Virus record (IMG/VR): IMGVR_UViG_3300002137_000064
Span: 1-29,074 of that record
From: a virus
Direction: 5' to 3' (one strand)
DNA: 29,074 bases
Shown piece by piece: positions 13,117 to 28,929 of this stretch. The translations under genes were made by a program, and so were the position numbers. Within the stretch, counting starts at the first letter, position 1; every line of letters begins with the position of its first letter. The notes beneath the pieces were generated by a model. That model saw only the letters and a program-made list of their open reading frames with translations, was not told the DNA's origin and ran no database searches.

Positions 13117-13145
13117 TTGACATGTTCACAGTTATATCGTATAAT
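13117..13145 (+). promoter_or_regulatory. sigma70 promoter for the 79-aa gene and tRNA cluster
   Basis: TTGACA-17-TATAAT followed by the standard AAACACATA leader. The next terminator is at 13837, so the three tRNAs are probably on this transcript. Confidence 0.85.
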
Positions 13146-13176
13146 AAACACATACTAAGCAACAATGTGGAACTAG

Positions 13177-13416
13177 ATGACATTACCAGATGAAAGACTC
13201 CGTGCTGTACAGTATACAGAACAGTTTCTACAGCGACTAGCGGGTGGGCATTATGCTCGTGTACCCAAGGCAGTTCGTGATGAAGCTAGAAGTATGCTGA
13301 GACACTATCCAAGTCGCTGGGACATGAGCAAGGCTGCGCAGACAAGCCCGGACATATTTGCTGAACGTATAGAAGATCTACACAGATTCATCCTGAAAGG
13401 ACAGACACAAGACTAA
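13177..13416 (+). CDS. BPSL0761-like small protein
   Basis: 79 aa: DERLRAVQYTEQFLQRLAGG, VPKAVRDEARSMLRHYPSRWDMSKAAQTSPDIFAERI. The RxxAVxxTxxFLxxL start and the ARxxLRHYPS core match the BPSL0761 family of small bacterial/phage proteins, whose function is unknown. It lies between a strong promoter and the tRNA-Met gene (1 base after its stop), so it heads the tRNA transcript. The ribosome site is poor. Confidence 0.7.
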   Translation: MTLPDERLRAVQYTEQFLQRLAGGHYARVPKAVRDEARSMLRHYPSRWDMSKAAQTSPDIFAERIEDLHRFILKGQTQD

Positions 13417-13417
13417 C

Positions 13418-13492
13418 GGGCCGATAGCTTAATGGTAAAGCAGGGTACTCATAATGCCTTGAGTCCTGGTTCAATTCCAGGTCGGCCCACCA
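13418..13492 (+). tRNA. tRNA-Met (CAT)
   Basis: 75 nt with acceptor GGGCCGA/TCGGCCC, anticodon loop CTCATAA, T-loop TTCAATT and encoded CCA. G1-C72 is paired, so it is not an initiator. A lysidine-modified tRNA-Ile(CAT) is the alternative and cannot be excluded by eye. Confidence 0.92.
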
Positions 13493-13526
13493 CTACTAGA
13501 CTATAACTACAGTACATACAGTACAC

Positions 13527-13611
13527 GCTCGCATGGTGAAATAGGTAAACACAACAGACTTAAAATCTGTCGCCGCGAGGCTTCCCGGTTCGATTCCGGG
13601 TGCGAGCACCA
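13527..13611 (+). tRNA. tRNA-Leu (TAA)
   Basis: 85 nt with acceptor GCTCGC/GCGAGC, anticodon loop CTTAAAA, the long variable arm of class II tRNAs, T-loop TTCGATT and encoded CCA. Confidence 0.95.
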
Positions 13612-13616
13612 AGTTT

Positions 13617-13693
13617 CCGCCCTTAGCTCAGCTGGATAGAGCAACGGATTTCTACTCCGTGGGTCGGGCGTTCGAATCGCTCAGGGCGGACCA
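13617..13693 (+). tRNA. tRNA-Arg (TCT)
   Basis: 77 nt with acceptor CCGCCCT/AGGGCGG, anticodon stem ACGGA/TCCGT around TTTCTAC (anticodon TCT), T-loop TTCGAAT and encoded CCA. It would read AGA, a codon often rare in the host. Confidence 0.95.
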
Positions 13694-13710
13694 AGCTCCA
13701 GTGCTGATCA

Positions 13711-13767
13711 GCTGCTGCTGTAGAGTGTGAGTGTGATTCCCAGTGGGATTGCAGCTACAGCAGCAGC
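13711..13767 (+). ncRNA. long CTG/CAG hairpin after tRNA-Arg
   Basis: GCTGCTGCTGTAG (13711-13723) pairs perfectly over 13 bp with CTACAGCAGCAGC (13755-13767); the loop contains a small TCCC/GGGA stem. It lies between the tRNA-Arg 3' end and the terminator on the same transcript. It could be a stable processed RNA, an end-protection element or a tRNA-processing signal. Confidence 0.45.
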
Positions 13768-13836
13768 AGCTCGATGAAGTCACGACAGTGCCGCGAAGTC
13801 AGACTGCTGTGTGGCATTTTGGACACGTTTTGGATA

Positions 13837-13870
13837 GAAACCCAGTTAACTCTAGGGTTTCTTTCTTTTT
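13837..13870 (+). terminator. intrinsic terminator of the tRNA operon
   Basis: GAAACCC-N11-GGGTTTC is a perfect 7-bp stem followed by TTTCTTTTT, ending just before the -35 box of the next promoter. Confidence 0.85.
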
Positions 13871-13872
13871 GG

Positions 13873-13901
13873 TTGACAAGGTAGTCAAAGTGTCGTATAA
13901 T
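13873..13901 (+). promoter_or_regulatory. sigma70 promoter for the GIY-YIG-like gene
   Basis: TTGACA-17-TATAAT. Only six bases separate the -10 box from the ATG, so the predicted start of transcription is the start codon itself. Confidence 0.85.
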
Positions 13902-13907
13902 ACTAGC

Positions 13908-14246
13908 ATGGACACAAAAAACACACCCCGCAAGAAACGTGCAGATCGCAATCATATCATATATGAGCTGCGTGTTGCTGGTGGCAACTACATTGGTGTC
14001 ACTGCAAAGACCTGCACTACAGTGAACAAGTCAGTGCTTGCTCGTGCTGCCAAGCACTTCTATCGTGCAAAGACAGAAGGCAAGAACTGGTTGTTGTGTG
14101 CTGCACTGCGCACACTCAGCGACAAGAGCGAGATCGAAGTACTAGTACACGGCATCGTCCGCGGCAAGGCTGAGGCTCATCGGCGTGAAGTTGAGCTGCG
14201 CAGACAGTTGTGCCCTACACTTAACACAGACACAAGAGGAGATTGA
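13908..14246 (+). CDS. GIY-YIG-like nuclease-fold protein
   Basis: 112 aa. HIIYELRVAGGNYIGVTA corresponds to the GIY...YIG strands, followed by LARAAKHFYRAKTEGKNWLLCAALR in place of the Arg/His helix and a conserved REVELRRQLCPTLNTD end, where the Glu of the REVE segment may be the metal ligand. A longer frame from 13743 crosses the tRNA-operon terminator and promoter and is rejected. The start at 13908 would make a leaderless mRNA. It is 1 base from the next gene. A nuclease role is likely, but the exact catalytic residues are not proven. Confidence 0.7.
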   Translation: MDTKNTPRKKRADRNHIIYELRVAGGNYIGVTAKTCTTVNKSVLARAAKHFYRAKTEGKNWLLCAALRTLSDKSEIEVLVHGIVRGKAEAHRREVELRRQLCPTLNTDTRGD

Positions 14247-14247
14247 T

Positions 14248-14529
14248 ATGAAACAAGATTACACACTGTACATCTACAAGGCAGACCGTCGTAAGAAGAC
14301 AGGCGAGCGACTGTTCTCTACTACTGTATGGACTGGGCAGGACGACAACGGTATGCGTCGCACTGTGGCAGATCTGTTTGATCCTTATCCTCCCAGCAAG
14401 GGCTACCGCTTTGAATGGTTCCCCTCAATGAAGACTGTGAAGAACTTGATGACGGGCAAAGATGTAGAGATAGCACATGACACACCCCGTAGCTGTGATC
14501 CATCTAGCGAACTCTACTGGAGCATGTAG
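14248..14529 (+). CDS. unknown small protein
   Basis: 93 aa (MKQDYTLYIYKADRRKKTGERLFSTTVWTG...DPYPPSKGYRFEWFPSMKTVKNLMTG), mixed strand/helix, basic N-terminal half. GAGGAG lies 7 bases before the ATG, which rules out the earlier ATG at 14185. It is co-transcribed with the GIY-YIG-like gene. No family is recognised. Confidence 0.7.
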   Translation: MKQDYTLYIYKADRRKKTGERLFSTTVWTGQDDNGMRRTVADLFDPYPPSKGYRFEWFPSMKTVKNLMTGKDVEIAHDTPRSCDPSSELYWSM

Positions 14530-14536
14530 ATTTTGG

Positions 14537-14565
14537 TTGACAGTGCTGCTGCACTGTGCTATAAT
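14537..14565 (+). promoter_or_regulatory. sigma70 promoter with spacer palindrome
   Basis: TTGACA-17-TATAAT. The spacer contains CAGTGC-TGCT-GCACTG, a perfect 6-bp inverted repeat (14541-14556). Confidence 0.9.
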
Positions 14566-14594
14566 ATACACTTACAAACGTTAAGGAGCGAACC

Positions 14595-14951
14595 ATGCGT
14601 GACTATGAAACACTACTAGAAGAGCAACGCGGTCCCTACACTGTGGTAGTGGACAAGACCTGGGAAGACATTAACCCACGTGACTGCTTTGAAGCAGAGG
14701 ATGCAGACGAGATCTGTCGCAAGATCGACAACGGCACCTACGATTGGTTCATGCTGCGTGTACGTGTACAGTTTGAAGGCTACGAGCTGGCCGCGGAGTA
14801 CTTGGGCGGATGCTGCTACCAGCGCCCAGAAGAAGTGTTAACAGATGGTACCGCGGAGGACATCATCGAGCAGGCCATCGAGGGCGCTCGCAAAGAAACC
14901 CTAAAGCTCACAGGGTCTTTAAACAAATTGGTTGACACCTGTGCATTTTGA
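14595..14951 (+). CDS. unknown acidic protein
   Basis: 118 aa, pI clearly acidic, one domain (YTVVVDKTWEDINPRDCFEAEDADEICRKIDNGTYDWFMLRVRVQFEGYELAAEYLGGCCY). AAGGAGCGA precedes the start. The last residues NKLVDTCAF are encoded by the -35 box and spacer of the next promoter. Related small acidic proteins are frequent in marine phages; the function is unknown. Confidence 0.75.
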   Translation: MRDYETLLEEQRGPYTVVVDKTWEDINPRDCFEAEDADEICRKIDNGTYDWFMLRVRVQFEGYELAAEYLGGCCYQRPEEVLTDGTAEDIIEQAIEGARKETLKLTGSLNKLVDTCAF

Positions 14952-14960
14952 GCATATAAT
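14932..14960 (+). promoter_or_regulatory. sigma70 promoter inside the end of the previous gene
   Basis: TTGACA-17-TATAAT. The preceding gene's stop codon (14949-14951) lies within the spacer. Confidence 0.88.
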
Positions 14961-14988
14961 TAATGCTTAAACACACACAGGAGCTAGT

Positions 14989-15243
14989 ATGCAAAACGCA
15001 AACGCATTTAACACACAAGCAAAAGCAAAACTCGTATACAACAAAGACAAAGAGACTTATACTATTGTCTGCGCTTTTAACGTCACAGAAACAAACGACA
15101 ACGGCACGTACAAGTTTCCTCCTCGCAAAAAATGCGACTTTGTCAGCGGCGAGTTTGTGTACAACACGCTGCAAGCAGACCTCAAGCGCATTGTAGAGAC
15201 TGCTAAAAAACTGTTGCGCACAAACAACATTAAGTTTGTGTAA
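14989..15243 (+). CDS. unknown small basic protein
   Basis: 84 aa (MQNANAFNTQAKAKLVYNKDKETYTIVCAFNVTETNDNGTYKFPPRKKCDF...), strand-rich, net positive, with a C-terminal helix DLKRIVETAKKLL. AGGAGC lies before the ATG. Single-gene unit between two standard promoters. No family is recognised. Confidence 0.7.
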   Translation: MQNANAFNTQAKAKLVYNKDKETYTIVCAFNVTETNDNGTYKFPPRKKCDFVSGEFVYNTLQADLKRIVETAKKLLRTNNIKFV

Positions 15244-15246
15244 TTT

Positions 15247-15275
15247 AAAATGAGGGGTTGACAGCTCCTCATTTT
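15247..15275 (+). terminator. hairpin enclosing the next -35 box
   Basis: AAAATGAGG (15247-15255) and CCTCATTTT (15267-15275) are perfect 9-bp complements; the -35 TTGACA lies in the loop. It could end transcription of the upstream gene while the DNA serves as promoter for the next. Confidence 0.6.
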
Positions 15276-15286
15276 GGACATATAAT
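15258..15286 (+). promoter_or_regulatory. sigma70 promoter
   Basis: TTGACA-17-TATAAT with the AAACACATA leader. The -35 box is in the loop of a 9-bp inverted repeat. Confidence 0.9.
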
Positions 15287-15313
15287 AAACACATAGCAAC
15301 AAAGGAGCGAGCA

Positions 15314-15730
15314 ATGCAAAATATTACACACACAGAAGACGGCTACGAGCTGGAAATTATTGTAAACAAAATGTTTACAACATGCGGCGACGGCTACTGG
15401 AGCACAGTAGCTAAGGAAGTGTTTGTAGAGAGCATTAATATGTATATTAGTGCAGATAAAGAAGAAGGCTGCGATGGCGATTTGCAGGCTTACTTTACAG
15501 AGGAAACTTGGAATGACAGCTACGGCTTAATTTACACAGACAGCGCATTTTTAGCCTGTGTACACGCTGCACTTATTGCAGCAGGCATTAGCACTGAGGC
15601 AGCAGAGGACGTTGGCTACAGCGAGCAAGGCATGCAAGGCGATGACTATGTGAGCATGGACGCTTATGCGCTAGCAGACTATGTGCGAGCGGCTATGCAA
15701 AATACTGTAAAAGCGAGCATGGAAGCATAA
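15314..15730 (+). CDS. unknown acidic protein
   Basis: 138 aa, strongly acidic, helical (ISADKEEGCDGDLQAYFTEETWND... AALIAAGISTEAAEDVG... MDAYALADYVRAAMQNTVKASMEA). AAGGAGCGA precedes the start. Alone in its transcription unit. DNA-mimic or host-inhibitor roles are typical of such early acidic phage proteins, but that is only inference. Confidence 0.7.
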   Translation: MQNITHTEDGYELEIIVNKMFTTCGDGYWSTVAKEVFVESINMYISADKEEGCDGDLQAYFTEETWNDSYGLIYTDSAFLACVHAALIAAGISTEAAEDVGYSEQGMQGDDYVSMDAYALADYVRAAMQNTVKASMEA

Positions 15731-15734
15731 TTTA

Positions 15735-15762
15735 AAATTAGGGGTTGACAGCCCCGTAATTT
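15735..15762 (+). terminator. hairpin enclosing the next -35 box
   Basis: AAATTAGGGG and CCCC-G-TAATTT pair with one bulged G, with TTGACAG as the loop, the same design as at 15247 and 16278. Confidence 0.55.
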
Positions 15763-15773
15763 GAAGTTATAAT
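15745..15773 (+). promoter_or_regulatory. sigma70 promoter
   Basis: TTGACA-17-TATAAT with the AAACACATA leader. Confidence 0.9.
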
Positions 15774-15805
15774 AAACACATAAACAGCAAATAGGAGCGA
15801 ACACT

Positions 15806-16273
15806 ATGGCAACAAGATCAGCAATTGCAGTCAAGCACGGCGACCGGGTTAAAGCAGTATACTGCCACTGGGATGGCTATCTCAGCAACAACGGACGCAT
15901 CCTGCAGGAACATTACTCTAGTCCTAAAGCCAATCATCTAGTATCGCTGGGCGATGTCAGCAGCCTGCAAGCAGAGATTGGCGAGAAGCATGCCTTTAGT
16001 CGCTTGGACACAGACATGCCCGCAGAAGAATACGAAGCACTCTACGGCAACATGACTACGTTCTACGGACGTGATCGCGAAGAGACAGGCTGTGACTTTA
16101 AGAGCTTTGACGATGTTGCAGCCTTTGTAGATCACTATGAGGGTGCCGGCTGCGAGTACTTTTACCTGCACAACGGCACAGAGTGGCTTGTAAGCACAGG
16201 GCAGATGCAGAATGGCTTTCCTGTGTTTGAGTTGCTGTCAGTAGCACTAGAAACCCTAAAAGTTGAAGGGTAA
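15806..16273 (+). CDS. conserved phage protein, MATRSAIAVKHGD family
   Basis: 155 aa. The opening MATRSAIAVKHGDRVKAVYCHWDGYLSNNGRILQEHY is a pattern I recognise from many unrelated phage genomes, always at the N-terminus of about 140-180-aa proteins of unknown role. The rest includes EYFYLHNGTEWLV near the C-terminus. AGGAGCGA lies before the ATG. Single-gene unit. Soluble; no motif indicates catalysis. Confidence 0.8.
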   Translation: MATRSAIAVKHGDRVKAVYCHWDGYLSNNGRILQEHYSSPKANHLVSLGDVSSLQAEIGEKHAFSRLDTDMPAEEYEALYGNMTTFYGRDREETGCDFKSFDDVAAFVDHYEGAGCEYFYLHNGTEWLVSTGQMQNGFPVFELLSVALETLKVEG

Positions 16274-16277
16274 TGCA

Positions 16278-16302
16278 TTTAGGGGTTGACAAGACCCCTA
16301 AA
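16278..16302 (+). terminator. hairpin enclosing the next -35 box
   Basis: TTTAGGGG (16278-16285) and CCCCTAAA (16295-16302) are perfect 8-bp complements with TTGACAAGA in the loop. Confidence 0.6.
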
Positions 16303-16314
16303 GTGCGCTATAAT
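16286..16314 (+). promoter_or_regulatory. sigma70 promoter for the AAA ATPase gene
   Basis: TTGACA-17-TATAAT with the ATACACTTA leader. Confidence 0.9.
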
Positions 16315-16348
16315 ATACACTTACTAACAAACATTCATGGAGCGAAAC

Positions 16349-17461
16349 ATGCATATTACATTCACAGAAGGCTGGTACAATATACGCGGCAATGCCGTTA
16401 ACGTTGGTGGAATGAGCTTTGAGCTTGTTGAAGACTTCAAAGTAGGCAAAGATGGCGAAGGCTATGTCACAGTTGACGGCAGTTCGCAGGCAGGCTTTCC
16501 AGCTCGCAACATCCGTATCAAGTGTCGCCAGGGCGGTTATGTCACTGGTAGTTCCCAACTTAGTCGTATCCCTGAAGGAGTGAGCATGTTGAAAGCGTTG
16601 AAGCAGAGTGCAGATGCCAAGCACATGGATTTTACCCAAAACAAAGTAGCGGACGAAGCTGTAGCCGCAGAAACTGACGAAGCTATCATCGAGCGTACTA
16701 AGGCTCGCTTTGAAGTACTACGTGAAATGACCAAGGCTGTGAAAGCAGGCGATGTACGTGCTATGATCGTCACAGGCCCTCCAGGTGTAGGCAAGAGCTT
16801 TGGTGTTGAAGAAGTGCTGAGCAAAGACGATCTGTTCAACACACTAGGCGAACGCAAGCCTAAGTATGAGATCGTTAAAGGTGCTATGAGTGCCATTGGC
16901 TTGTACAGCAAGCTCTACGAGTACAGTGACAGCAAGAGCATCTTAGTGTTCGATGACTGTGACAGCATCTTGTTAGACGATGTATCGCTGAACATTCTCA
17001 AAGCGGCACTAGACACTAGCAAGAAGCGTACTATCAGCTGGAACACTGACAGCCGCATCCTGCGCTCAGAGGGCATTCCAGACAAGTTTGACTTCAAAGG
17101 CGGTGCTGTGTTCATCACTAACTTGAAGTTCGAGAACGTTCGCTCTAAGAAGTTGCAGGATCACTTGGCAGCACTAGAGTCACGCTGTCACTACATTGAC
17201 TTGAAGATGGATACAGAGCGTGAGAAAGTCCTGCGCATTGAGCAGATTGTGTTTAGCCCAGAAGCAGGACAGAACGGTATGCTTGACGACTACGACATCA
17301 GCGATGCAGCCAAACATGAAGTAGTAGACTTCATTAAAGAGAACAAGCGCTTGATGCGTGAGATCAGCTTGCGTACTGTATTGAAAGTGGCAGACTTGCG
17401 CAAGAGCTTCCCTAACAACTGGGTGAACATGGCTAAAGTCACTGTTATGAAAGGTGGATAA
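16349..17461 (+). CDS. AAA-family ATPase
   Basis: 370 aa. The N-terminal 80 residues form a strand-rich unknown domain. The AAA core has Walker A GPPGVGKS at 143-150, Walker B ILVFDDCD at 198-205, a sensor strand VFITN at 254-258 and a likely Arg finger near ESRCHYIDL. The start at 16349 is chosen because GGAGCGA lies just before it; the ATG at 16337 overlaps that ribosome site. An internal ATG at 16586 (Met80) also has an AAGGAG site, which would release the AAA part alone. A remodelling or replication/packaging helper role is possible; the family is widespread in T4-like marine phages. Confidence 0.85.
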   Translation: MHITFTEGWYNIRGNAVNVGGMSFELVEDFKVGKDGEGYVTVDGSSQAGFPARNIRIKCRQGGYVTGSSQLSRIPEGVSMLKALKQSADAKHMDFTQNKVADEAVAAETDEAIIERTKARFEVLREMTKAVKAGDVRAMIVTGPPGVGKSFGVEEVLSKDDLFNTLGERKPKYEIVKGAMSAIGLYSKLYEYSDSKSILVFDDCDSILLDDVSLNILKAALDTSKKRTISWNTDSRILRSEGIPDKFDFKGGAVFITNLKFENVRSKKLQDHLAALESRCHYIDLKMDTEREKVLRIEQIVFSPEAGQNGMLDDYDISDAAKHEVVDFIKENKRLMREISLRTVLKVADLRKSFPNNWVNMAKVTVMKGG

Positions 17462-17462
17462 T

Positions 17463-17648: not shown

Positions 17649-17665
17649 ATTGGTAAAATTAGTAG

Positions 17666-17694
17666 TTGACCTTATTAGGATAGGCTGCTATAAT
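17666..17694 (+). promoter_or_regulatory. sigma70 promoter for the winged-helix gene
   Basis: TTGACC-17-TATAAT, followed by a leader (GCTGA...TCAGC hairpin at about 17702-17724) and an AAAGGAAAC ribosome site rather than AGGAGCG. Confidence 0.85.
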
Positions 17695-17743
17695 TTAATA
17701 ATGCTGAAGAACAAATTATCAGCTTAACAAAAGGAAACTTAAC

Positions 17744-18061: not shown

Positions 18062-18073
18062 GTCACGTTTGGA

Positions 18074-18104
18074 GAGTGTGGTGTAAAAGCCACACTCTTT
18101 TTTT
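18074..18104 (+). terminator. strong intrinsic terminator
   Basis: GAGTGTGG-N8-CCACACTC is a perfect 8-bp stem followed by seven T. Confidence 0.93.
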
Positions 18105-18129: not shown

Positions 18130-18158
18130 TTGACAGATTGGATACATAATGTTATAAT
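18130..18158 (+). promoter_or_regulatory. sigma70 promoter
   Basis: TTGACA-17-TATAAT preceded by AATCTTTTCGG, an upstream block shared with several promoters here. Confidence 0.9.
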
Positions 18159-18190: not shown

Positions 18191-18829
18191 ATGAACTTCA
18201 CAGCAGAGCAGGTTTGGGGTTTAGCGGTAGCAGCAGATCGTATCAACGGTGGCTACTTCAAAGAAGATGTCTACGTTATGGAGAACCAGTGTACCAAGCG
18301 AGTCACGCAGGCCAACAAGCTCATGCTCAAAGAGTGGTTGCGTGATGGTATGCTCACTGAAGCAACCGCAGAGGATATCACAAAGGGCCGTGAGGTTCGA
18401 CACTACTTCAACGGCTTCCTACTCAAAGAACTCAGCGGTCGTATCAACGACTTTGAGCGGCAAGCACTCAAGATCGCACAGCTGGAAGAGTTCACAGGCC
18501 GCAACCTACTAGAGTTTGCCATCGTAAGCTGTCTACCTGCTGCTATGCTACGTGAACAGAGCCGCAAAGAGCTAGACAGCGACATCCGTAATAGCACTCA
18601 GCTCACTGGCACTGTAGGCGATAAGATACAGGGCGAAGTAGAGATCATCAAGTGTCACTATTCGCAAGAATACAACAAATTCAGAATCACAGCGAAACTG
18701 GTTGACAGCTTCGTTGATTTCTGGTATAATAGTAAAATGGAAGCAGGAGATCGTATAACCATTAAGGCTAAGATCAAAAGCGTTCGTGGCAATAATACAA
18801 CACAATTGAACTATGTGAAAAAAGTTTAA
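18191..18829 (+). CDS. conserved phage protein with OB-like C-terminal domain
   Basis: 212 aa. The N-terminal helical part (1-140) has FTAEQVWGLAVAADRINGGYF and HYFNGFLLKELSGRINDFERQALKIA. The C-terminal 70 residues (VGDKIQGEVEIIKCHY...KFRITAKLVDSFVDFWYNSKMEAGDRITIKAKIKSVRGNNTTQLNYVKKV) look like a small OB barrel, as found in nucleic-acid-binding phage proteins. A full consensus promoter (18702-18730) lies inside the OB part, with an in-frame ATG exactly 7 bases after its -10 box. AGGAGCGA precedes the main start. Function unknown; nucleic-acid binding is inferred. Confidence 0.72.
   Translation: MNFTAEQVWGLAVAADRINGGYFKEDVYVMENQCTKRVTQANKLMLKEWLRDGMLTEATAEDITKGREVRHYFNGFLLKELSGRINDFERQALKIAQLEEFTGRNLLEFAIVSCLPAAMLREQSRKELDSDIRNSTQLTGTVGDKIQGEVEIIKCHYSQEYNKFRITAKLVDSFVDFWYNSKMEAGDRITIKAKIKSVRGNNTTQLNYVKKV
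18702..18730 (+). promoter_or_regulatory. promoter internal to the OB-like gene
   Basis: TTGACA-17-TATAAT inside the coding region. The in-frame ATG at 18737 is at the same distance from the -10 box as in the GIY-YIG-like gene, so a leaderless 30-codon product is possible. It may also be coincidence in the coding sequence. Confidence 0.5.
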
Positions 18830-18836: not shown

Positions 18837-18865
18837 TTGACAGCTTAGCCAAAAGCTGTTATAAT
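18837..18865 (+). promoter_or_regulatory. sigma70 promoter for the MoxR gene
   Basis: TTGACA-17-TATAAT. ACAGCTT (18840-18846) and AAGCTGT (18853-18859) form a perfect inverted repeat in the spacer. Confidence 0.9.
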
Positions 18866-20088: not shown

Positions 20089-20117
20089 TTGACAATCGGA
20101 TGCGTTGGTGCTATAAT
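20089..20117 (+). promoter_or_regulatory. sigma70 promoter for the VWA gene
   Basis: TTGACA-17-TATAAT with the ATATACATA leader. Confidence 0.9.
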
Positions 20118-21420: not shown

Positions 21421-21449
21421 TTGACATCTAGAACGTTTGATCGTATAAT
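21421..21449 (+). promoter_or_regulatory. sigma70 promoter
   Basis: TTGACA-17-TATAAT preceded by AATCTTTTCGG and followed by ATACACATAGACAAACAA. Confidence 0.92.
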
Positions 21450-22068: not shown

Positions 22069-22097
22069 TTGACAGCCTGTCCGATCTATCGTATAAT
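22069..22097 (+). promoter_or_regulatory. sigma70 promoter
   Basis: TTGACA-17-TATAAT. ATCGG (22064-22068) and CCGAT (22081-22085) flank the -35 box as an inverted repeat. Confidence 0.9.
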
Positions 22098-22124: not shown

Positions 22125-22331
22125 ATGACATACAAAGGTTTCACATACAGTCCAGAGATTGAACTGGAAGATGACAATCGTAAAATCTACCACGAGATCC
22201 TGTTTAATGGTAAGCGAGTGCAACCACCTTACTGGTTCCAGAACATCAGCCCGTACACATATCCAACCAACGAAGAGTTTCAGCGAGCAGTCGATGAAAT
22301 TTATTTTGAAAATTGGGTAGAAAACGGTTGA
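22125..22331 (+). CDS. unknown small protein
   Basis: 68 aa (MTYKGFTYSPEIELEDDNRKIYHEILFNGKRVQPPYWFQNISPYTYPTNEEFQRAVDEIYF...). AGGAGAGCGAC precedes the ATG at 22125; an upstream in-frame ATG at 22011 lies inside the previous gene and is rejected. Its TGA stop is supplied by the -35 box of the next promoter. Confidence 0.72.
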   Translation: MTYKGFTYSPEIELEDDNRKIYHEILFNGKRVQPPYWFQNISPYTYPTNEEFQRAVDEIYFENWVENG

Positions 22332-22356
22332 CAGTTTGGACAAACCTTGTTATAAT
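22328..22356 (+). promoter_or_regulatory. sigma70 promoter
   Basis: TTGACA-17-TATAAT. The -35 box contains the stop codon of the previous gene; GTTTG-GA-CAAAC is an inverted repeat in the spacer. Confidence 0.9.
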
Positions 22357-22729: not shown

Positions 22730-22758
22730 TTGACAGCTTGGCATTTTGGTTGTATAAT
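22730..22758 (+). promoter_or_regulatory. sigma70 promoter
   Basis: TTGACA-17-TATAAT preceded by AATCTTTTTGG and followed by ATACACATAGACAAACAA. Confidence 0.92.
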
Positions 22759-23693: not shown

Positions 23694-23722
23694 TTGACAG
23701 ATTGGATAGACCTTGCTATAAT
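23694..23722 (+). promoter_or_regulatory. sigma70 promoter
   Basis: TTGACA-17-TATAAT, leader ATAGACATACAGTAAGGAG. Confidence 0.92.
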
Positions 23723-23747: not shown

Positions 23748-23903
23748 GTGGAATTTACAGTGATCTACGCAACAGGTAAAGAACAGAAGTTTCACATAAG
23801 GGCCGTGGCAGAGATGTATGCTAACATCTATGGTGGCCGTGTTGTAGGAAAGCCACAGTTGGAATTGATAGTAAACAAATTGGTTGACAAATTGGCTGCT
23901 TGA
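23748..23903 (+). CDS. unknown small protein with GTG start
   Basis: 51 aa (MEFTVIYATGKEQKFHIRAVAEMYANIYGGRVVGKPQLELIVNKLVDKLAA). The ATG two bases earlier gives only five codons, so the GTG at 23748, with AAGGAGAACG upstream, is the likely start. Its C-terminus NKLVDKLAA is encoded by the next promoter. Confidence 0.65.
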   Translation: MEFTVIYATGKEQKFHIRAVAEMYANIYGGRVVGKPQLELIVNKLVDKLAA

Positions 23904-23912
23904 TCGTATAAT
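23884..23912 (+). promoter_or_regulatory. sigma70 promoter inside the end of the previous gene
   Basis: TTGACA-17-TATAAT. The previous stop codon lies in the spacer, four bases before the -10 box. Confidence 0.9.
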
Positions 23913-23939: not shown

Positions 23940-24113
23940 ATGCAAACACAAGACATCCTAGAAGCAATCGACACAAAGCTAGACGAAGTAGATGAGATGA
24001 TCATGGAGTTGCCCTTGCCTGATTCAATCAAGCGCAAACTGTGTGAAAACCTTTACACATTGTGGGAACAAGTAGAAGCAGAAATGGATCTAAAATCAAC
24101 AGATTTTGGTTGA
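23940..24113 (+). CDS. unknown small acidic helical protein
   Basis: 57 aa (MQTQDILEAIDTKLDEVDEMIMELPLPDSIKRKLCENLYTLWEQVEAEMDL...), largely helical and possibly coiled coil. AAGGAG lies 7 bases before this ATG; an earlier in-frame ATG at 23919 lies in the mRNA leader. The TGA stop is supplied by the next -35 box. Confidence 0.68.
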   Translation: MQTQDILEAIDTKLDEVDEMIMELPLPDSIKRKLCENLYTLWEQVEAEMDLKSTDFG

Positions 24114-24138
24114 CAGTTTGGTTTTTTGGTTGTATAAT
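24110..24138 (+). promoter_or_regulatory. sigma70 promoter
   Basis: TTGACA-17-TATAAT. The -35 box contains the stop codon of the previous gene. Confidence 0.92.
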
Positions 24139-24170
24139 ATATACATACACTAACAAAACAGGAGCGAATT

Positions 24171-24434: not shown

Positions 24435-24637
24435 CCAGTCAGGAACGCAAGTGGCTGGCAACAGCCTTAACGGCCTTAGAGGGCACGATGAGTCCTATGG
24501 CCCGGGTAAAGATCCTGCGCACCGTTGGTCAACTCTACTCTGCTAGTGCTGATAGAATTGAATGTGAATTGGTTGACAAGTTCGAAGATCGGATGTATAA
24601 TACTAACATACAGACACAAGGAGCAACACATGCCTAA
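24431..24637 (+). CDS. unknown small protein whose 3' end is a promoter
   Basis: 68 aa (MTSQERKWLATALTALEGTMSPMARVKILRTVGQLYSASADRIECELVDKFEDRMYN...). The last 21 codons are encoded by a complete promoter, leader and ribosome site of the next gene, and the frame ends 8 bases inside that gene. It is coupled to the previous gene by ATGA. The whole-frame overlap is the strongest case of coding/promoter sharing in the window. Confidence 0.65.
   Translation: MTSQERKWLATALTALEGTMSPMARVKILRTVGQLYSASADRIECELVDKFEDRMYNTNIQTQGATHA
24573..24601 (+). promoter_or_regulatory. sigma70 promoter inside a coding region
   Basis: TTGACA-17-TATAAT, fully within the 68-aa gene, driving the YubB-like gene. Confidence 0.85.
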
Positions 24638-25253: not shown

Positions 25254-25444
25254 ACAGAACATTTAATTTTCAATTCGAGATCGTCTGTGCAGGCGATGGC
25301 GAAGCGGACATGGCACAGGTTGAGAACTTGATCGATCTGTCCATGCAGGAACTTGTCTATGACGATGAATTTATTTCAGCACTAGATGAGCAGTCGGCGG
25401 TGACCATTAGAGTGTCCAGATTGGGAAGTAAATTGGGCGAATAA
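25250..25444 (+). CDS. unknown small acidic protein
   Basis: 64 aa (MNRTFNFQFEIVCAGDGEADMAQVENLIDLSMQELVYDDEFISALDEQSAVTIRVSRLG). Strand-helix-strand content suggests a small alpha/beta fold. ATGA coupling to the YubB-like gene suggests a joint function. Confidence 0.65.
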   Translation: MNRTFNFQFEIVCAGDGEADMAQVENLIDLSMQELVYDDEFISALDEQSAVTIRVSRLGSKLGE

Positions 25445-25447
25445 TGG

Positions 25448-25476
25448 TTGACGATTTGGTTAGTAGATGTTATAAT
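25448..25476 (+). promoter_or_regulatory. sigma70 promoter
   Basis: TTGACG-17-TATAAT, three bases after the previous stop codon. Confidence 0.85.
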
Positions 25477-25522
25477 TAATTGTCAATCTTGACATACACA
25501 CACAGAAAAAGGAAACTTTAAA

Positions 25523-25834
25523 ATGGCTACAGATAAAACTTTCGCAGTAACAGGTGTTTCAACAGTTGCAGGCAAGACTAAGATTCGCTTCGCTAACGAT
25601 GTAATGCGCATCAAGATCCTTGCTAAGAACGGTCATACAGACATTGAGCTTGTTGATCTTCCACACGCAATGACCAAGGGTGAGATCGCCCAGCATATGA
25701 ATTCCATTGGCTTTGCCAAAGGTCAAGACACCGTACAATCGGCCATTGACTACATTGCCAAGAAGAATCCCGTGGCCCAAGCGCCATTGGTAAGTACAAC
25801 TACTGTCGTGACGACAGAAGCTGTCACTGAGTAA
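25523..25834 (+). CDS. conserved marine-phage-type protein
   Basis: 103 aa. TFAVTGVSTVAGKTKIRFANDVMRIKILAKNGHTDIELVDLPHAMTKGEIAQHM resembles hypothetical proteins of T4-like cyanophages and pelagiphages. The C-terminal tail is a low-complexity Thr/Val stretch. The AAAAGGAAAC ribosome site, the strong terminator and the 21-nt 3' element pair this gene with the winged-helix gene at 17744, suggesting both are highly expressed or commonly controlled. Confidence 0.75.
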   Translation: MATDKTFAVTGVSTVAGKTKIRFANDVMRIKILAKNGHTDIELVDLPHAMTKGEIAQHMNSIGFAKGQDTVQSAIDYIAKKNPVAQAPLVSTTTVVTTEAVTE

Positions 25835-25853
25835 GCCGATTCGCTCCCGGGGC
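25833..25853 (+). repeat. 21-nt 3' untranslated element, copy 2
   Basis: Identical over 21 bases to 18041-18061. Here it begins within the TAA stop codon. A terminator follows 17 bases later. Confidence 0.8.
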
Positions 25854-25869
25854 ATTCAGTGAACCTTGG

Positions 25870-25902
25870 GGGACTAGTAGTAAAATACTAGTCCCTTTTT
25901 TT
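25870..25902 (+). terminator. strong intrinsic terminator
   Basis: GGGACTAGTA-N6-TACTAGTCCC is a perfect 10-bp stem followed by seven T. Confidence 0.95.
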
Positions 25903-25913
25903 CATCTTTTCGG

Positions 25914-25942
25914 TTGACAAGCTATTCGTTTGGCGCTATAAT
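25914..25942 (+). promoter_or_regulatory. sigma70 promoter
   Basis: TTGACA-17-TATAAT preceded by ATCTTTTCGG and followed by AAACACATACACAAACAA. Confidence 0.92.
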
Positions 25943-25974
25943 AAACACATACACAAACAAACATGGAGCGAAAC

Positions 25975-26280
25975 ATGAATATCAAAGACATTAACACAGC
26001 GATTATGTTCGGAACTTGGGACAACACAGAGCTGTCCAGCATGATCGATGCTGTCAAGTGGAACCGTGCTCAACTGGGCAAGTCCATTAAGAACAGTATT
26101 AGGATTGGCGACAACGTCAACTTCACAAGCTCTAAGACAGGGCAGAACATTACAGGTGTTGTGATCAAGATCGCTATCAAGTATGTCACAGTGAAGACAG
26201 CACAGGGCCAGTGGAAAGTGCCTGCGAATATGTTGACGGTGGACTTCAGTGGCTTCGTTGACAAGTTCGCAAGTGTATGA
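25975..26280 (+). CDS. conserved phage protein with SH3/KOW-like C-terminus
   Basis: 101 aa. An N-terminal helix (WDNTELSSMIDAVKWNRAQLG) is followed by a small barrel, RIGDNVNFTSSKTGQNITGVVIKIAIKYVTVKTAQGQWKVPANML, which resembles a KOW/SH3-like fold. The start at 25975 is chosen because GGAGCGA lies before it and covers the earlier ATG at 25963. A similar layout is common in marine T4-like phages. RNA or protein binding is possible. Confidence 0.75.
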   Translation: MNIKDINTAIMFGTWDNTELSSMIDAVKWNRAQLGKSIKNSIRIGDNVNFTSSKTGQNITGVVIKIAIKYVTVKTAQGQWKVPANMLTVDFSGFVDKFASV

Positions 26281-26674
26281 CCTACTCCTGATAGTAGGAT
26301 GCCTTGTAGCCGGAGGTATAATCGGCTACAAGGTATCAGCTCGCTATCATATGAAGATGTTCACAGAGCTAATGGAAGAGCTAAAGATCGATAAAGAACG
26401 ATTGATGGCCTATGCCGAAGAACACGGTATGGAAGTTGGTGACGACTACGACAACGATAATATGCCAGAATACGATCTAGTGATAGTGCAAGACGGTGCT
26501 CAACTCTATGCTTACCGTAAAGACACAAAAGCGTTCCTAGGTCAGGCAGCAGACCCCGAAGCACTAGTAGAACGCATTGCCCAAGACTGGCGTGGTGTAC
26601 GATTTAAAATAGCTGAAGAAGACGGCGCAGGCCTTATGAAGACCCCAGAACAAGGAGACACCCATGGGACGTAG
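26273..26674 (+). CDS. membrane-anchored acidic protein
   Basis: 133 aa from GTG 26273. A transmembrane segment at 2-20 (YDLLLIVGCLVAGGIIGYK) is followed by a helical, acidic soluble region (MKMFTELMEELKIDKERLMAYAEEHGMEVGDDYDNDN) and a small strand-rich end. The GTG overlaps the previous stop by 8 bases; GTG at 26249 is an alternative. Neither has a strong ribosome site, so the start is uncertain. Confidence 0.6.
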   Translation: MYDLLLIVGCLVAGGIIGYKVSARYHMKMFTELMEELKIDKERLMAYAEEHGMEVGDDYDNDNMPEYDLVIVQDGAQLYAYRKDTKAFLGQAADPEALVERIAQDWRGVRFKIAEEDGAGLMKTPEQGDTHGT

Positions 26675-26852
26675 ACCTTTCATTAAGAAACAATCCACTA
26701 GAATGAAACCAGAGACCACAGAGACTGTAGAACAGTTCCTAGCACGTGGTGGTGCGATAACCGTGGTTCCTGCGGCTAATGCGTTTGGTTGGCACGGCAA
26801 GGAAGATCCAGCTGCCGATGTTCAAGGCATGGTAGAGACGGCCGTCAATTAA
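26664..26852 (+). CDS. unknown small protein
   Basis: 62 aa (MGRRPFIKKQSTRMKPETTETVEQFLARGGAITVVPAANAFGWHG...). Basic N-terminus, then a VEQFLARGGxI core I associate with short phage proteins. AAGGAGAC precedes the ATG. It begins 11 bases before the previous stop. An opposite-strand promoter at 26852-26880 points into this gene. Confidence 0.7.
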   Translation: MGRRPFIKKQSTRMKPETTETVEQFLARGGAITVVPAANAFGWHGKEDPAADVQGMVETAVN

Positions 26853-26880
26853 TTATAACATCTTTTGGATGTGTTGTCAA
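26852..26880 (-). promoter_or_regulatory. antisense sigma70 promoter
   Basis: On the minus strand TTGACA (26880-26875), a 17-base spacer and TATAAT (26857-26852) match the window's plus-strand promoters exactly. It points into the end of the 62-aa and 133-aa genes. No minus-strand gene with a ribosome site follows, so an antisense RNA is the likely product. Confidence 0.7.
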
Positions 26881-26908
26881 TAGCCCTATGCACTGTAGGG
26901 CTATTTTA
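26880..26908 (+). terminator. intrinsic terminator
   Basis: ATAGCCCTA-N7-TAGGGCTAT is a perfect 9-bp stem followed by TTATTTT. The loop core TGCACTG is nearly that of the terminator at 27345. Confidence 0.88.
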
Positions 26909-26914
26909 TTTTGG

Positions 26915-26943
26915 TTGACAGTTTGGACAGACAGTGTTATAAT
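26915..26943 (+). promoter_or_regulatory. sigma70 promoter, duplicated unit 1
   Basis: TTGACA-17-TATAAT. The whole promoter including its spacer is identical to that at 27691-27719. Confidence 0.92.
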
Positions 26944-26970
26944 AAACACTTAGCAACAAAGAGGTCCAAT

Positions 26971-27120
26971 ATGTACGCAATCGTAAACACTACAACTAAA
27001 GCTATTAGCTACTACACATCCGAGTCTGCTGCTTCGGAAGCGTGTCGCGTCTACAATGTGCAGCCGGGCCATAGTGTTTACATTATTAACTTCGCAGTTC
27101 CGGAAATAGAACAGTTGTAA
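26971..27120 (+). CDS. unknown small protein
   Basis: 49 aa (MYAIVNTTTKAISYYTSESAASEACRVYNVQPGHSVYIINF). Strand-helix-strand pattern. AGAGGT precedes the ATG at 26971; frames beginning earlier cross the promoter. Single-gene unit. Confidence 0.68.
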   Translation: MYAIVNTTTKAISYYTSESAASEACRVYNVQPGHSVYIINFAVPEIEQL

Positions 27121-27147
27121 TAACACTACAGCAAGCAGGGTCTTTGC

Positions 27148-27176
27148 TTGTCCAAAATACAAATGTGTGTTATAAT
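27148..27176 (+). promoter_or_regulatory. sigma70 promoter, weaker -35
   Basis: TTGTCC-17-TATAAT. It keeps the 17-base spacer although the -35 box departs from consensus. Confidence 0.7.
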
Positions 27177-27198
27177 AAGTTTTAAAAGGAACTAAACA

Positions 27199-27339
27199 AT
27201 GTCAGAATTACAAACTCAACTTACACAGCTTCTCTTGCAAATGCAAAATTTGCTAGAAGAAGACTATGCAGAAAACGTTGCTATACAAGACGCTTTTAAT
27301 GCGCTTGCTTGTGCTATAGACGAAGAAATTATAGCATAA
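27199..27339 (+). CDS. small acidic helical protein
   Basis: 46 aa (MSELQTQLTQLLLQMQNLLEEDYAENVAIQDAFNALACAIDEEIIA), predicted helical with a Leu/Gln-rich first half that could form a coiled coil. AAAAGGAAC precedes the start. Lies between a promoter and a strong terminator as a one-gene unit. Confidence 0.65.
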   Translation: MSELQTQLTQLLLQMQNLLEEDYAENVAIQDAFNALACAIDEEIIA

Positions 27340-27344
27340 CTGTA

Positions 27345-27369
27345 AAGACCCTATGCAGTGTAGGGTCTT
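27345..27369 (+). terminator. intrinsic terminator
   Basis: AAGACCCTA-N7-TAGGGTCTT is a perfect 9-bp stem, followed by AGATTTT, immediately before the next promoter. Confidence 0.85.
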
Positions 27370-27378
27370 AGATTTTGG

Positions 27379-27407
27379 TTGACAGATTGGCTAAAGTGCA
27401 GTATAAT
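27379..27407 (+). promoter_or_regulatory. sigma70 promoter
   Basis: TTGACA-17-TATAAT with the AAACACATACACAGCAACA leader. Confidence 0.92.
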
Positions 27408-27441
27408 AAACACATACACAGCAACACATTAGGAGCACTTC

Positions 27442-27687
27442 ATGGACATCAGCAACATCGCAAAAGTTTACTCAGGTCGTTATGGTTGCATGTGCGGCTG
27501 TAAAGGCAAGTACTCTTACAACGAAGGTGTGGAGCGTGAGGACTGGCAGGGTGATGTTAGCACTCGCAGCATCAAGATCATTGCTGGCAAAGTGCTTAAT
27601 GATCCCCGTGCTGACCGCGCAGAAGACGGCTACGTGACTCTCGTTGATCGCGAGCGCAACACAATCAAAGTTGTTTATTTTAAATAA
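27442..27687 (+). CDS. small Cys-rich-motif protein, phage type
   Basis: 81 aa. KVYSGRYGCMCGCKGKYSY has three Cys (16, 18, 20) in an alternating pattern that recurs in marine-phage hypothetical proteins. The rest is strand-rich and mixed-charge (RAEDGYVTLVDRERNTIKVVYFK). AGGAGC precedes the start. Metal binding through the CxCxC is possible but would need further ligands. Confidence 0.75.
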   Translation: MDISNIAKVYSGRYGCMCGCKGKYSYNEGVEREDWQGDVSTRSIKIIAGKVLNDPRADRAEDGYVTLVDRERNTIKVVYFK

Positions 27688-27690
27688 TGG

Positions 27691-27719
27691 TTGACAGTTT
27701 GGACAGACAGTGTTATAAT
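27691..27719 (+). promoter_or_regulatory. sigma70 promoter, duplicated unit 2
   Basis: TTGACA-17-TATAAT, identical in spacer to 26915-26943. Confidence 0.92.
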
Positions 27720-27735
27720 AAACACATACAAAGCA

Positions 27736-27784
27736 AAACGCTACTGGCGCAGCAAGGTGCTGCTAGACATAACTGAAAGCGTTT
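27736..27784 (+). promoter_or_regulatory. structured mRNA leader
   Basis: AAACGCT (27736-27742) pairs with AGCGTTT (27778-27784) and encloses a perfect GCAGCA-AGG-TGCTGC hairpin (27749-27763). The leader is about 75 nt, far longer than its neighbours (about 25 nt), which suggests a regulatory or stabilising element ahead of a three-gene unit. Confidence 0.55.
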
Positions 27785-27800
27785 ACACTAGGAGAATGAG

Positions 27801-27974
27801 ATGAATGATAGCGTAAAGAACATCGATGCAATCCTAGTCAAGATGGGTGCAGATCATCCAGGCGACATCATTGCTGACATCCTACACTGGTGCGATCATT
27901 ATAAGGAAGACTTTGCGGATCTGGTGCGTCAAGGACAGAACTATCACAGCAACGAACTAGAGGCTCAACTATGA
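27801..27974 (+). CDS. unknown small acidic protein
   Basis: 57 aa (MNDSVKNIDAILVKMGADHPGDIIADILHWCDHYKEDFADLVRQGQNYHSNELEAQL), helical. AGGAGAATG precedes the ATG. It is the first gene after the structured leader and is coupled to the next by ATGA. Confidence 0.7.
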   Translation: MNDSVKNIDAILVKMGADHPGDIIADILHWCDHYKEDFADLVRQGQNYHSNELEAQL

Positions 27975-28213
27975 CAATCACCGTGGAAGGTATTCTAAGC
28001 AAGTACAGTGCTGACTATGACAAGTTCAAAGCCGGCGGCGATATTGATGAGAACCAGGACTTCATTGATGCACTGTACGAATACTACAGCAATTCAGGTG
28101 AAATGCCATATGGTATACAAAAAGCTCGTGACGGTGATCCTTACGAATGGATCACAGATCGCTTGGACACAATGTTCATTGACACAGTGTTCAAGCGTTT
28201 GGCGGTACGTTGA
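27971..28213 (+). CDS. unknown small protein
   Basis: 80 aa (MTITVEGILSKYSADYDKFKAGGDIDENQDFIDALYEYYSNSGEMPYGIQKARDGDPYEWITDRLDTMFID...), acidic and helical. ATGA coupling on the 5' side; the next gene's TTG start overlaps its TGA on the 3' side. Confidence 0.7.
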   Translation: MTITVEGILSKYSADYDKFKAGGDIDENQDFIDALYEYYSNSGEMPYGIQKARDGDPYEWITDRLDTMFIDTVFKRLAVR

Positions 28214-28422
28214 ACTTAAACAATGTCCTAAAATGGTCAGGTATGCTGTGCGTGGTACTAGGAGCAGCGACTACCAGCTTCCGCATAGATCCCCTTAACA
28301 TCTACTTGTTAAATGCGGGTGCTGCCCTGTACCTAGTGTGGGCCGTAAGGATCAAAGAGCTGAATCTCATCATAGTGAACGCTGTGCTATTAGCCGTGTA
28401 CATTGTAGGGTTATTCCAATAA
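28210..28422 (+). CDS. small three-span membrane protein
   Basis: 70 aa from TTG 28210. Three hydrophobic segments (about 8-23, 29-45, 51-68; GMLCVVLGAATTSF, YLLNAGAALYLVWAV, LIIVNAVLLAVYIVGLF) suggest a semiSWEET/PnuC-like small bundle, but the similarity is only topological. The TTG overlaps the previous TGA; the first in-frame ATG (codon 12) would cut the first span, so TTG is preferred. Confidence 0.65.
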   Translation: MNLNNVLKWSGMLCVVLGAATTSFRIDPLNIYLLNAGAALYLVWAVRIKELNLIIVNAVLLAVYIVGLFQ

Positions 28423-28426
28423 GAGG

Positions 28427-28455
28427 TTGACAAGCTCACCAAAGTGCAGTATAAT
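28427..28455 (+). promoter_or_regulatory. sigma70 promoter
   Basis: TTGACA-17-TATAAT with AAACACATAGCAACAAAGGAG. Confidence 0.92.
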
Positions 28456-28482
28456 AAACACATAGCAACAAAGGAGCGGCAC

Positions 28483-28686
28483 ATGGCTTACAAGGCAATT
28501 CCAAAGATACTCGGATACGGACCACGCAAAGGACTAGAAGGTCCGTTCAACTTCATGGGCCGGCCCTTGTACTATGATGTCAAAGAGGGTGCCTACTATG
28601 ATCCCCGCAGTGACTTCTACATAGAGCAGGATGAGATGGAGATCATCAACGCACAATTCATGAACTTGTTTAAGGAACCCGCATAA
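28483..28686 (+). CDS. unknown small protein
   Basis: 67 aa (MAYKAIPKILGYGPRKGLEGPFNFMGRPLYYDVKEGAYYDPRSDFYIEQDEMEIINAQF...), rich in Gly, Pro and Tyr in the first half. AAGGAGCGG precedes the ATG. It overlaps the next gene by TAATG. No family is recognised. Confidence 0.7.
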   Translation: MAYKAIPKILGYGPRKGLEGPFNFMGRPLYYDVKEGAYYDPRSDFYIEQDEMEIINAQFMNLFKEPA

Positions 28687-28904
28687 TGCCACAGTTAGAA
28701 GGACTCACACACGAACAGGTCGTACTCTGCGATCTGCTATGGAACTCCGATGATCCCACAGTATTGATAGCTGCCATGCCCACACAGCAGCGTAGAACAG
28801 CACTGACACTGATGCAGATGATCACACTGGCAGAGATCGATGACATAGTACTGACTATGACTCCTAGGCAGATTAATCGTACATACTTGAATCTTTTTGG
28901 TTGA
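28686..28904 (+). CDS. unknown small protein
   Basis: 72 aa (MPQLEGLTHEQVVLCDLLWNSDDPTVLIAAMPTQQRRTALTLMQMITLAEIDDIVLTM...), helical, resembling short marine-phage proteins that begin with EQxxLCxLLW. TAATG overlap with the previous gene. Its TGA stop is supplied by the -35 box of the next promoter. Confidence 0.7.
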   Translation: MPQLEGLTHEQVVLCDLLWNSDDPTVLIAAMPTQQRRTALTLMQMITLAEIDDIVLTMTPRQINRTYLNLFG

Positions 28905-28929
28905 CAAGCTGTCCAAACGAAGTTATACT
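28901..28929 (+). promoter_or_regulatory. sigma70 promoter
   Basis: TTGACA-17-TATACT preceded by AATCTTTTTGG. The -35 box contains the stop of the previous gene. Confidence 0.9.

Follow-up and report, generated by a model that had tools for sequence, protein, structure and literature searches.

A dense array of sigma70-type promoters with an invariant 17-bp spacer, probably forming promoter/stem-loop cassettes, in an uncultured, probably T4-related jumbo phage

The IMG/VR virus record IMGVR_UViG_3300002137_000064 comprises 29,074 bases with a GC content of 45% (hereafter referred to as the window). Its most conspicuous feature is a dense array of predicted sigma70-type promoters, one before nearly every small open reading frame (ORF) of a 16-kb block that extends from position 13117 to beyond 28901. 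Most of these ORFs lack a named Pfam or PHROG function, and many have no homologs in related phages. Between 13117 and 28929, we count 28 forward sites, including one with two mismatches at 27148, with a median spacing of 474 bp. Upstream of 13117, by contrast, there are just three isolated sites (6480 (-), 7095 and 8580). The features of the block, together with one isolated promoter, are listed below; promoters and stem-loops are predictions made from the DNA sequence.

13117..13145, plus strand: sigma70-type promoter (12/12, spacer 17) of ORF 13177 and probably the tRNA cluster 13418-13693
13836..13862, plus strand: terminator-like stem-loop, 8-bp stem with U-rich tail, directly upstream of promoter 13873
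13873..13901, plus strand: promoter with predicted leaderless mRNA, as the predicted +1 (13908) falls on the first base of the start codon (ATG) of ORF 13908-14246
14537..14565, plus strand: promoter with a 7-bp spacer hairpin (ACAGTGC..GCACTGT), spacer-hairpin class
14932..14960, plus strand: promoter of ORF 14989
15247..15275, plus strand: hairpin AAAATGAGG..CCTCATTTT (z = -6.1), loop containing the -35 box of promoter 15258
15258..15286, plus strand: promoter of ORF 15314
15745..15773, plus strand: promoter of ORF 15806, with a bulged hairpin (z = -2.8) whose loop contains the -35 box
16278..16302, plus strand: hairpin TTTAGGGG..CCCCTAAA, loop containing the -35 box of promoter 16286; arms covary across relatives
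16286..16314, plus strand: promoter of the AAA ATPase-like gene 16349-17461
17666..17694, plus strand: promoter (TTGACC, 11/12) of ORF 17744
18073..18098, plus strand: intrinsic terminator-like stem-loop with a T run, upstream of promoter 18130
18130..18158, plus strand: promoter of ORF 18191
18702..18730, plus strand: promoter within ORF 18191-18829 (codons LVDSFVDFWYNS), arisen in place in one subclade
18837..18865, plus strand: promoter with spacer hairpin ACAGCTT..AAGCTGT, MoxR-type ATPase gene 18911
20089..20117, plus strand: promoter of the DUF2201/VWA gene 20143-21351, present in 78/80 orthologs
21421..21449, plus strand: promoter of ORF 21484
22069..22097, plus strand: promoter of ORF 22125
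22328..22356, plus strand: promoter of ORF 22385
22730..22758, plus strand: promoter of ORFs 22790 and 23346
23694..23722, plus strand: promoter of ORF 23748
23884..23912, plus strand: promoter overlapping the 3' end of ORF 23748
24110..24138, plus strand: promoter of ORFs 24171 and 24431
24573..24601, plus strand: promoter overlapping the 3' end of ORF 24431; ORFs 24630 and 25250
25448..25476, plus strand: promoter (TTGACG, 11/12) of ORF 25523
25870..25895, plus strand: intrinsic terminator-like stem-loop with a T run, upstream of promoter 25914
25914..25942, plus strand: promoter of ORF 25975
26852..26880, minus strand: promoter, the sole exact one on this strand, pointing back across ORF 26664
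26879..26905, no strand assigned: terminator-like hairpin with a perfect stem, between promoters 26880 (-) and 26915 (+)
26915..26943, plus strand: promoter of ORF 26971, within a 38-bp repeat
27148..27176, plus strand: weaker promoter (TTGTCC, 10/12) of ORF 27199
27345..27369, plus strand: terminator-like stem-loop, upstream of promoter 27379
27379..27407, plus strand: promoter of ORF 27442
27691..27719, plus strand: promoter of ORFs 27801 and 27971, recent copy or source of 26915
28427..28455, plus strand: promoter of ORF 28483
28901..28929, plus strand: promoter (TATACT, 11/12) of ORF 28962
8580..8608, plus strand: isolated and exact promoter of the ATP-dependent DNA ligase gene (8639-9961), not part of the block

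The window contains 26 exact matches to TTGACA-N17-TATAAT (25 forward, 1 reverse), and 31 sites have this spacing when up to one mismatch is allowed. Including the weaker site at 27148, the total reaches 32, in agreement with a preliminary description of this DNA that had estimated about 32 promoters by eye, placed most of them in this block and considered the spacer invariant. The spacing is indeed exceptionally uniform, as all 26 exact sites have 17 bp between the boxes. Not a single site with zero or one mismatch was found in the window at spacers of 15, 16, 18 or 19 bp, and among the other spacers between 10 and 25 bp, single strays at 14, 23, 24 and 25 bp were the only hits at this threshold. 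An excess of two-mismatch sites at 19-20 bp mostly reflects register slippage of 17-bp sites, produced by the TAATAT inside TATAATAT. The notion that the array is a product of chance or base composition can be given practically no credence, because dinucleotide shuffles yield no exact site at all and the reversed pattern has no match in the window; we therefore rejected it.

The similarity between the promoters extends beyond the two boxes. A sequence logo reads TGG-TTGACA-(N17, with a weak G.TTGG....TG)-TATAAT-AnACAC-A(+1)-T, and a TG precedes the -10 box in 10 of the 25 sites that match exactly in the interval 13000-29074. At positions -1 to +2, 23 of the 28 block promoters have the sequence C-[A/T]-T; C-A-T is known as the typical start context favoured by sigma70 promoters. 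The leaders that follow are mostly ~19-28 nt long, and an AGGAG-type ribosome site is present in 20 of the 28 cases, which bears out the earlier suggestion of a common leader running from the start site to the ribosome site. ORF 13908 retains its leaderless layout in many relatives and has a normal ribosome site in others, and the gene seems to switch between these two states.

The contig is a member of a group of uncultured jumbo phages, probably related to T4, in which related records reach 364 kb and a gp23-type capsid occurs. Relatives of the DUF2201/VWA protein (20143-21351) were found at 270 IMG/VR places, on contigs of up to 353-364 kb, and the T4 gp23-type capsid family was detected in three large relatives (G001-G003). 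Among the proteins scanned from the window fragment, none represents a T4 structural gene. The nearest named phages at the protein level are PA5oct, Phosso, Atu_ph07 and E. coli jumbo phages, all with less than 60% identity, and when the entire block was searched for similarity to named phages, the only matches were to tRNAs. In the 353-kb relative G001, 31 of the 59 sites with no more than one mismatch lie on one strand within 300-340 kb, indicating that the promoter block is a local genome region. The two ends (L266 and L171) of the 364-kb contig IMGVR_UViG_3300021963_000021 (G002) are overlapping sequences with 87-94% identity that differ by indels located between promoters, suggesting that the genome is circularly permuted, with a length of ~362 kb, and that variants from different strains were assembled together.

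Comparison with these relatives sheds light on the cause of the uniformity, for which the preliminary description had proposed either a promoter-leader cassette spread by copying or strong selective pressure. Of the two, selection emerges as the main cause, with copying limited to a minority of sites. In the relatives, exact boxes are separated by 17 bp in 610 cases, by 16 bp in 12 and by 18 bp in 8, and 619 of 645 orthologous promoters have the 17-bp spacing. A promoter is found upstream of 78 of 80 orthologs of the DUF2201 gene, 66 of 67 orthologs of the ATPase gene and 64 of 68 orthologs of ORF 18191, and window genes lacking a promoter also lack one in the relatives (22552, 0/28; 25250, 0/44; 23346, 1/43). 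The spacers of orthologous promoters, on the other hand, match those of the window at a median of 4-9 out of 17 positions for most genes, compared with 6.1 out of 17 between unrelated promoters within the window. Since the spacers have thus drifted to background while their length was kept in 619 of 645 cases, purifying selection, rather than recent copying, explains most of the uniformity, with the boxes and their 17-bp distance being held in place and the intervening sequence being free to drift.

Alternatively, a single promoter-leader cassette could have been copied many times within the genome so recently that the copies have not yet diverged. Such a process would readily account for promoters 26915 and 27691, which lie within an exact 38-bp identity (26912-26949 and 27688-27725) that is confined to the promoter, and for four pairs of window spacers with at least 14/17 identity, compared to 0.06 in column shuffles; leader pairs are also in excess in the window. 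However, most spacers differ from one another to about the extent expected when bases are drawn at random from the column frequencies, and the orthologous promoters of distant relatives agree in boxes and spacer length but not in spacer sequence. Recent spread therefore appears highly unlikely as a general explanation, and the poor conservation of ortholog spacers led us to reject recent copying as the main cause, except for the pair 26915/27691.

Promoter 18702 provides a further argument against recent spread, because it formed inside conserved coding sequence. At the corresponding site of ~50 orthologs, the same codons mostly encode MGESFVDFWF or a similar sequence and the promoter is absent, with 2-4 positions deviating from the -35 box and 1-6 from the -10 box. 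In one subclade, comprising 11 loci with six haplotypes in addition to the window, both boxes are perfect, and the neighbouring bases vary. As its spacer is formed by the conserved F-V-D-F-W codons, the promoter is not a pasted cassette; instead, it arose in place, by base changes within the coding sequence. It more likely serves as a second promoter for the MoxR gene; translation of a leaderless short protein from it was also considered and discarded, because the in-frame ATG found at +1 in the window is lost in relatives.

Two aspects of the block, its stem-loops and the role of the promoters as seams between exchangeable units, were absent from the preliminary description and found in the follow-up. 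Three kinds of putative stem-loops can be distinguished: terminator-like hairpins upstream of the promoter, hairpins within the spacer, as in the T4-like phage RB49, and hairpins that carry the -35 box in their loop. In the window, 11-13 of the 28 block promoters are joined to a stem-loop, and several of the upstream hairpins fit the terminator pattern. Among 641 distinct promoters from relatives, an upstream GC-containing stem of at least 6 bp occurs in 182 cases (44.5 after shuffling) and a spacer stem in 22 (4.7 after shuffling). When the arms of different promoters were swapped, the number of -35-in-loop hairpins with a stem score of at least 6 fell from 47 to 19.3 (maximum 32), and that of spacer hairpins from 37 to 14.6 (maximum 25). 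The spacer hairpins have a constant frame, in which the ACA of the -35 box pairs with a TGT right before the -10 box, and variable arms (GGGCC/GGCCC, CGGGC/GCCCG, GGACC/GGTCC and AGCCC/GGGCT). Applied to the 31 sites of the window alone, the swapped-arm test was not significant (3 versus 1.9 and 3 versus 1.0), so that the case for the hairpins rests on the relatives.

The -35-in-loop arrangement is best documented for the ATPase gene (16349 in the window), where it is found in the window and in about half of 51 distinct relatives, with a score of at least 6 in 49% of cases, compared with 3.5% after shuffling. Over 52 orthologs, the mean stem score is 5.49 for matched and 2.98 ± 0.22 for swapped arms (maximum of 1000 trials, 3.82). 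In a constant-loop alignment of 11 sequences, 7 of 13 pairs have changed on both sides, with 14 compensatory cells compared to 5.6 after shuffling. Pairing in this alignment amounts to 88.7% and drops to at most 57% when the partner is slid by 1-3 columns, although the percentage is inflated by the choice of rows, which were picked for a shared loop length and nearly all contain the hairpin, making the swapped-arm test on all 52 orthologs the less biased measure. The covariation of the arms indicates selection for pairing, with the loop being kept as TTGACA. RNA folding yielded z = -6.1 for the hairpin at 15258 and z = -4.6 for that at 16286.

It is tempting to speculate that the -35-in-loop hairpin is a composite element, although we hold this view only tentatively, at slightly less than an even chance. 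One and the same stretch of 30-35 bp could act in RNA as the 3'-end hairpin of the upstream unit, serving as a terminator or processing site, and in DNA as the promoter of the next unit, such that an arriving polymerase would be released where the next one loads. The promoter-overlapping hairpins might also be elements of a different nature, either inverted repeats acting as repressor operators or sites where the 3' end of the preceding mRNA is stabilized or processed by an RNase. Consistent with this idea, neither the -35-in-loop nor the spacer hairpins have a clear U tract, and the stop codon of the preceding gene is usually located 6-36 nt ahead of the -35 box of the ATPase promoter, as would fit a 3'-end stabilizer or processing site. 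Yet the arms change together while their sequence varies, which argues against a sequence-specific operator, and many other block promoters have ordinary terminators in the same place. On balance, we consider a role other than termination rather unlikely for these hairpins.

Promoters also coincide with places at which related genomes diverge. Among close relatives, 40% of 142 alignment breakpoints are located within 50 nt of a promoter, compared to 21% for random places, with many of them falling at one spot 17-22 nt before the promoter centre. Individual comparisons illustrate the different outcomes. In the pair L134/L154, both flanking promoters are common and the coding sequence between them is different, whereas in L151/L175, the ORF-18191 unit is gone from L175 and a stub, TTGACC, is left as a remnant of the -35 box. 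L142 and L143 share 99.5% identity downstream of the seam but ~80% or less upstream of it. Finally, the ends of G002 differ by a ~300-bp piece that stops 26 bp before a promoter, apparently reflecting either the presence of two strains in the sample or a seam in the assembly. The breakpoints would most naturally be read as the result of homologous recombination between cassettes.

It is conceivable, however, that the breakpoints are an artefact of alignment and that the genes diverged in the ordinary way, with the promoters merely forming conserved islands. No other non-coding stretch is as conserved as the promoter, which makes alignments prone to stop there, and the random expectation is already 21% within 50 nt. 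This scenario appears improbable given the steep drop in identity at the L142/L143 seam, the replacement of coding sequence between two common promoters in L134/L154, the difference of a whole unit between L151 and L175 and the ~300-bp insertion between the G002 contig ends.

Collectively, these observations make it very probable that the block represents a set of early promoters for the host RNA polymerase that form cassettes similar to the promoter-early stem-loops (PeSLs) of T4-like phages. Each unit of one to three genes would start at its own full-consensus sigma70 promoter, followed by a leader of 19-28 nt with an AGGAG motif. The unmodified host RNA polymerase could then read these promoters right after DNA entry, outcompeting host promoters, and selection for maximal promoter strength would fix the boxes and the 17-bp length, leaving the spacer to drift. 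Between about one third and one half of the promoters are coupled to a predicted stem-loop, be it an upstream terminator, a spacer hairpin or a -35-in-loop hairpin, which may end or process the transcripts of the upstream unit and thus keep closely packed promoters from mutual read-through. As all units share almost the same first 40-60 bp, the cassettes may, in addition, serve as seams for the exchange, gain and loss of units. As for the polymerase itself, the multisubunit beta' family (PF04997) was not detected in G001-G003, which may be incomplete records, with the positive controls working. Sigma70 region 2 (PF04542) was likewise not detected in these three genomes, with positive controls, in a search that did not cover divergent T4 gp55-type sigma factors. 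A search for a T7-type polymerase was uninformative, because its positive control gave no signal.

Several points weigh against the interpretation of the block as PeSL-like early cassettes. More than half of the window promoters have no clear stem-loop, and the promoter-overlapping hairpins, which lack the classic U tract, may be poor terminators. The breakpoint statistics are partly biased, since alignments tend to end at a conserved promoter flanked by fast-evolving intergenic DNA even when no recombination has occurred, and the 17 pairs are not independent. Moreover, the L151/L175 deletion has only one endpoint inside a promoter, and gene order shows no more than a weak trend, with promoter-separated neighbours kept in 50% of cases versus 77% (outside the conserved core, from few independent pairs and not used as proof). 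Promoter activity and early timing are properties that we infer from the sequence motifs.

PeSLs were reportedly described by Arbiol et al. in 2010 in RB49. This type of cassette is thus already known; the -35-in-loop arrangement, by contrast, was not seen in RB49, the classic example that we checked. The PeSL cassettes of T4-like phages such as RB49 and phi1 (Arbiol et al., 2010, and Comeau et al., 2014, as cited in PMC4503421; Arbiol et al. also in PMC3950731) are the nearest known counterpart. The block shares with them the combination of a strong sigma70 early promoter and a stem-loop, its repetition before small variable genes and the gene exchange at the cassettes. Furthermore, its spacer hairpin (ACAGGGCC-TTCG-GGCCCTGT) occupies the place of the RB49 hairpin GGGGATC-GGT-GATCCCC, and the start-site context ends in ACACAT in both cases. 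It differs in that the lineage is jumbo, with genomes of up to 364 kb, and in that a stem-loop accompanies only part of the promoters, most often as a separate upstream hairpin. In RB49, 11 of 42 sites have a spacer hairpin (2.1 after swapping), and none of the 42 has the -35 box in a loop.

The array had been considered unusual even for phage early genes. This assessment holds for the spacing, which is almost exclusively 17 bp here and a mixture of 16 and 17 bp in RB49 (26/26 versus 6/21 exact sites at 17 bp; Fisher p = 7e-8), but not for the number of strong promoters, as 17-bp sites with at most one mismatch number 43 in RB49 and 73 in the jumbo myophage fEgEco12. The exact boxes of RB49 are spaced by 16 bp in 13 cases and by 17 bp in 6; in fEgEco12, the respective numbers are 31 and 10. 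The preference of RB49 (L248-L256) and fEgEco12 (L211-L229) for 16 bp represents a lineage difference in preferred spacing. Many full-consensus early-type promoters are also found in other jumbo myophages, with 45 exact sites at 15-19 bp in fEgEco12, 22 in CBB and 11 in PA5oct. Those of fEgEco12 differ in their preferred spacing and have no ACACAT leader, and we observed no excess of promoter-overlapping hairpins in this phage. For the PA5oct promoters, no paper was found in the literature searched.

The early promoters of T4, RB69, RB49 and Aeh1 have near-consensus -35 and -10 boxes, with TGn in some cases, are used by the host RNA polymerase and lie before early genes and novel ORFs (PMC2988021, PMC1524935). 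RB49 shares the preference for a G at -33 and a C right before the start, whereas T4 has GTTTAC-type -35 boxes (PMC2988021, PMC1524935); T4 contains just 3 sites with up to one mismatch to TTGACA-17-TATAAT. A more remote parallel is the haloarchaeal virus HGTV-1, in which a promoter-like box and an inverted repeat precede most ORFs of one genome arm, an arrangement that its authors liken to PeSLs (PMC3950731), although this virus is unrelated and its promoter is of the archaeal TATA type.

Our findings would extend promoter/stem-loop shuffling cassettes from the classic T4-like phages to a common uncultured jumbo lineage (270 related contig stretches). They also provide hundreds of naturally occurring promoter variants that preserve nothing but the two boxes, the exact length between them and the sequence context of the start site. 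Three cases are directly testable: the in-gene promoter that evolved in place, the hairpin sharing bases with the next promoter and the gene that seems to switch between leaderless and ribosome-site-led mRNA.

Some additional features of the window deserve mention. Its left part contains a phosphate-binding-protein-like gene (1459-2358 (-)), a class 3 lipase gene (293-1150 (-)) and a class I/II aminotransferase gene (4290-5501), which are possible auxiliary metabolic genes. The protein encoded at 20143-21351 is named HNH endonuclease in PHROG 1314 and several GenBank records, which is likely a mislabel; by Pfam, it has a DUF2201 putative metallopeptidase and a VWA-like domain, and the MoxR-type ATPase gene (18911) adjoins it. 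The minus-strand promoter at 26852-26880, which shares a hairpin with promoter 26915, could possibly give rise to an antisense RNA over ORF 26664. Promoters 23884, 24573 and 18702, which overlap the 3' ends of upstream genes, generate a recurrent LVD-type stretch (TTGGTTGAC..) at otherwise unrelated protein C termini. Finally, TTGACAAGTTCGCAAGTGTATGA (26258-26280), at the end of ORF 25975, resembles a decayed promoter akin to 24573.

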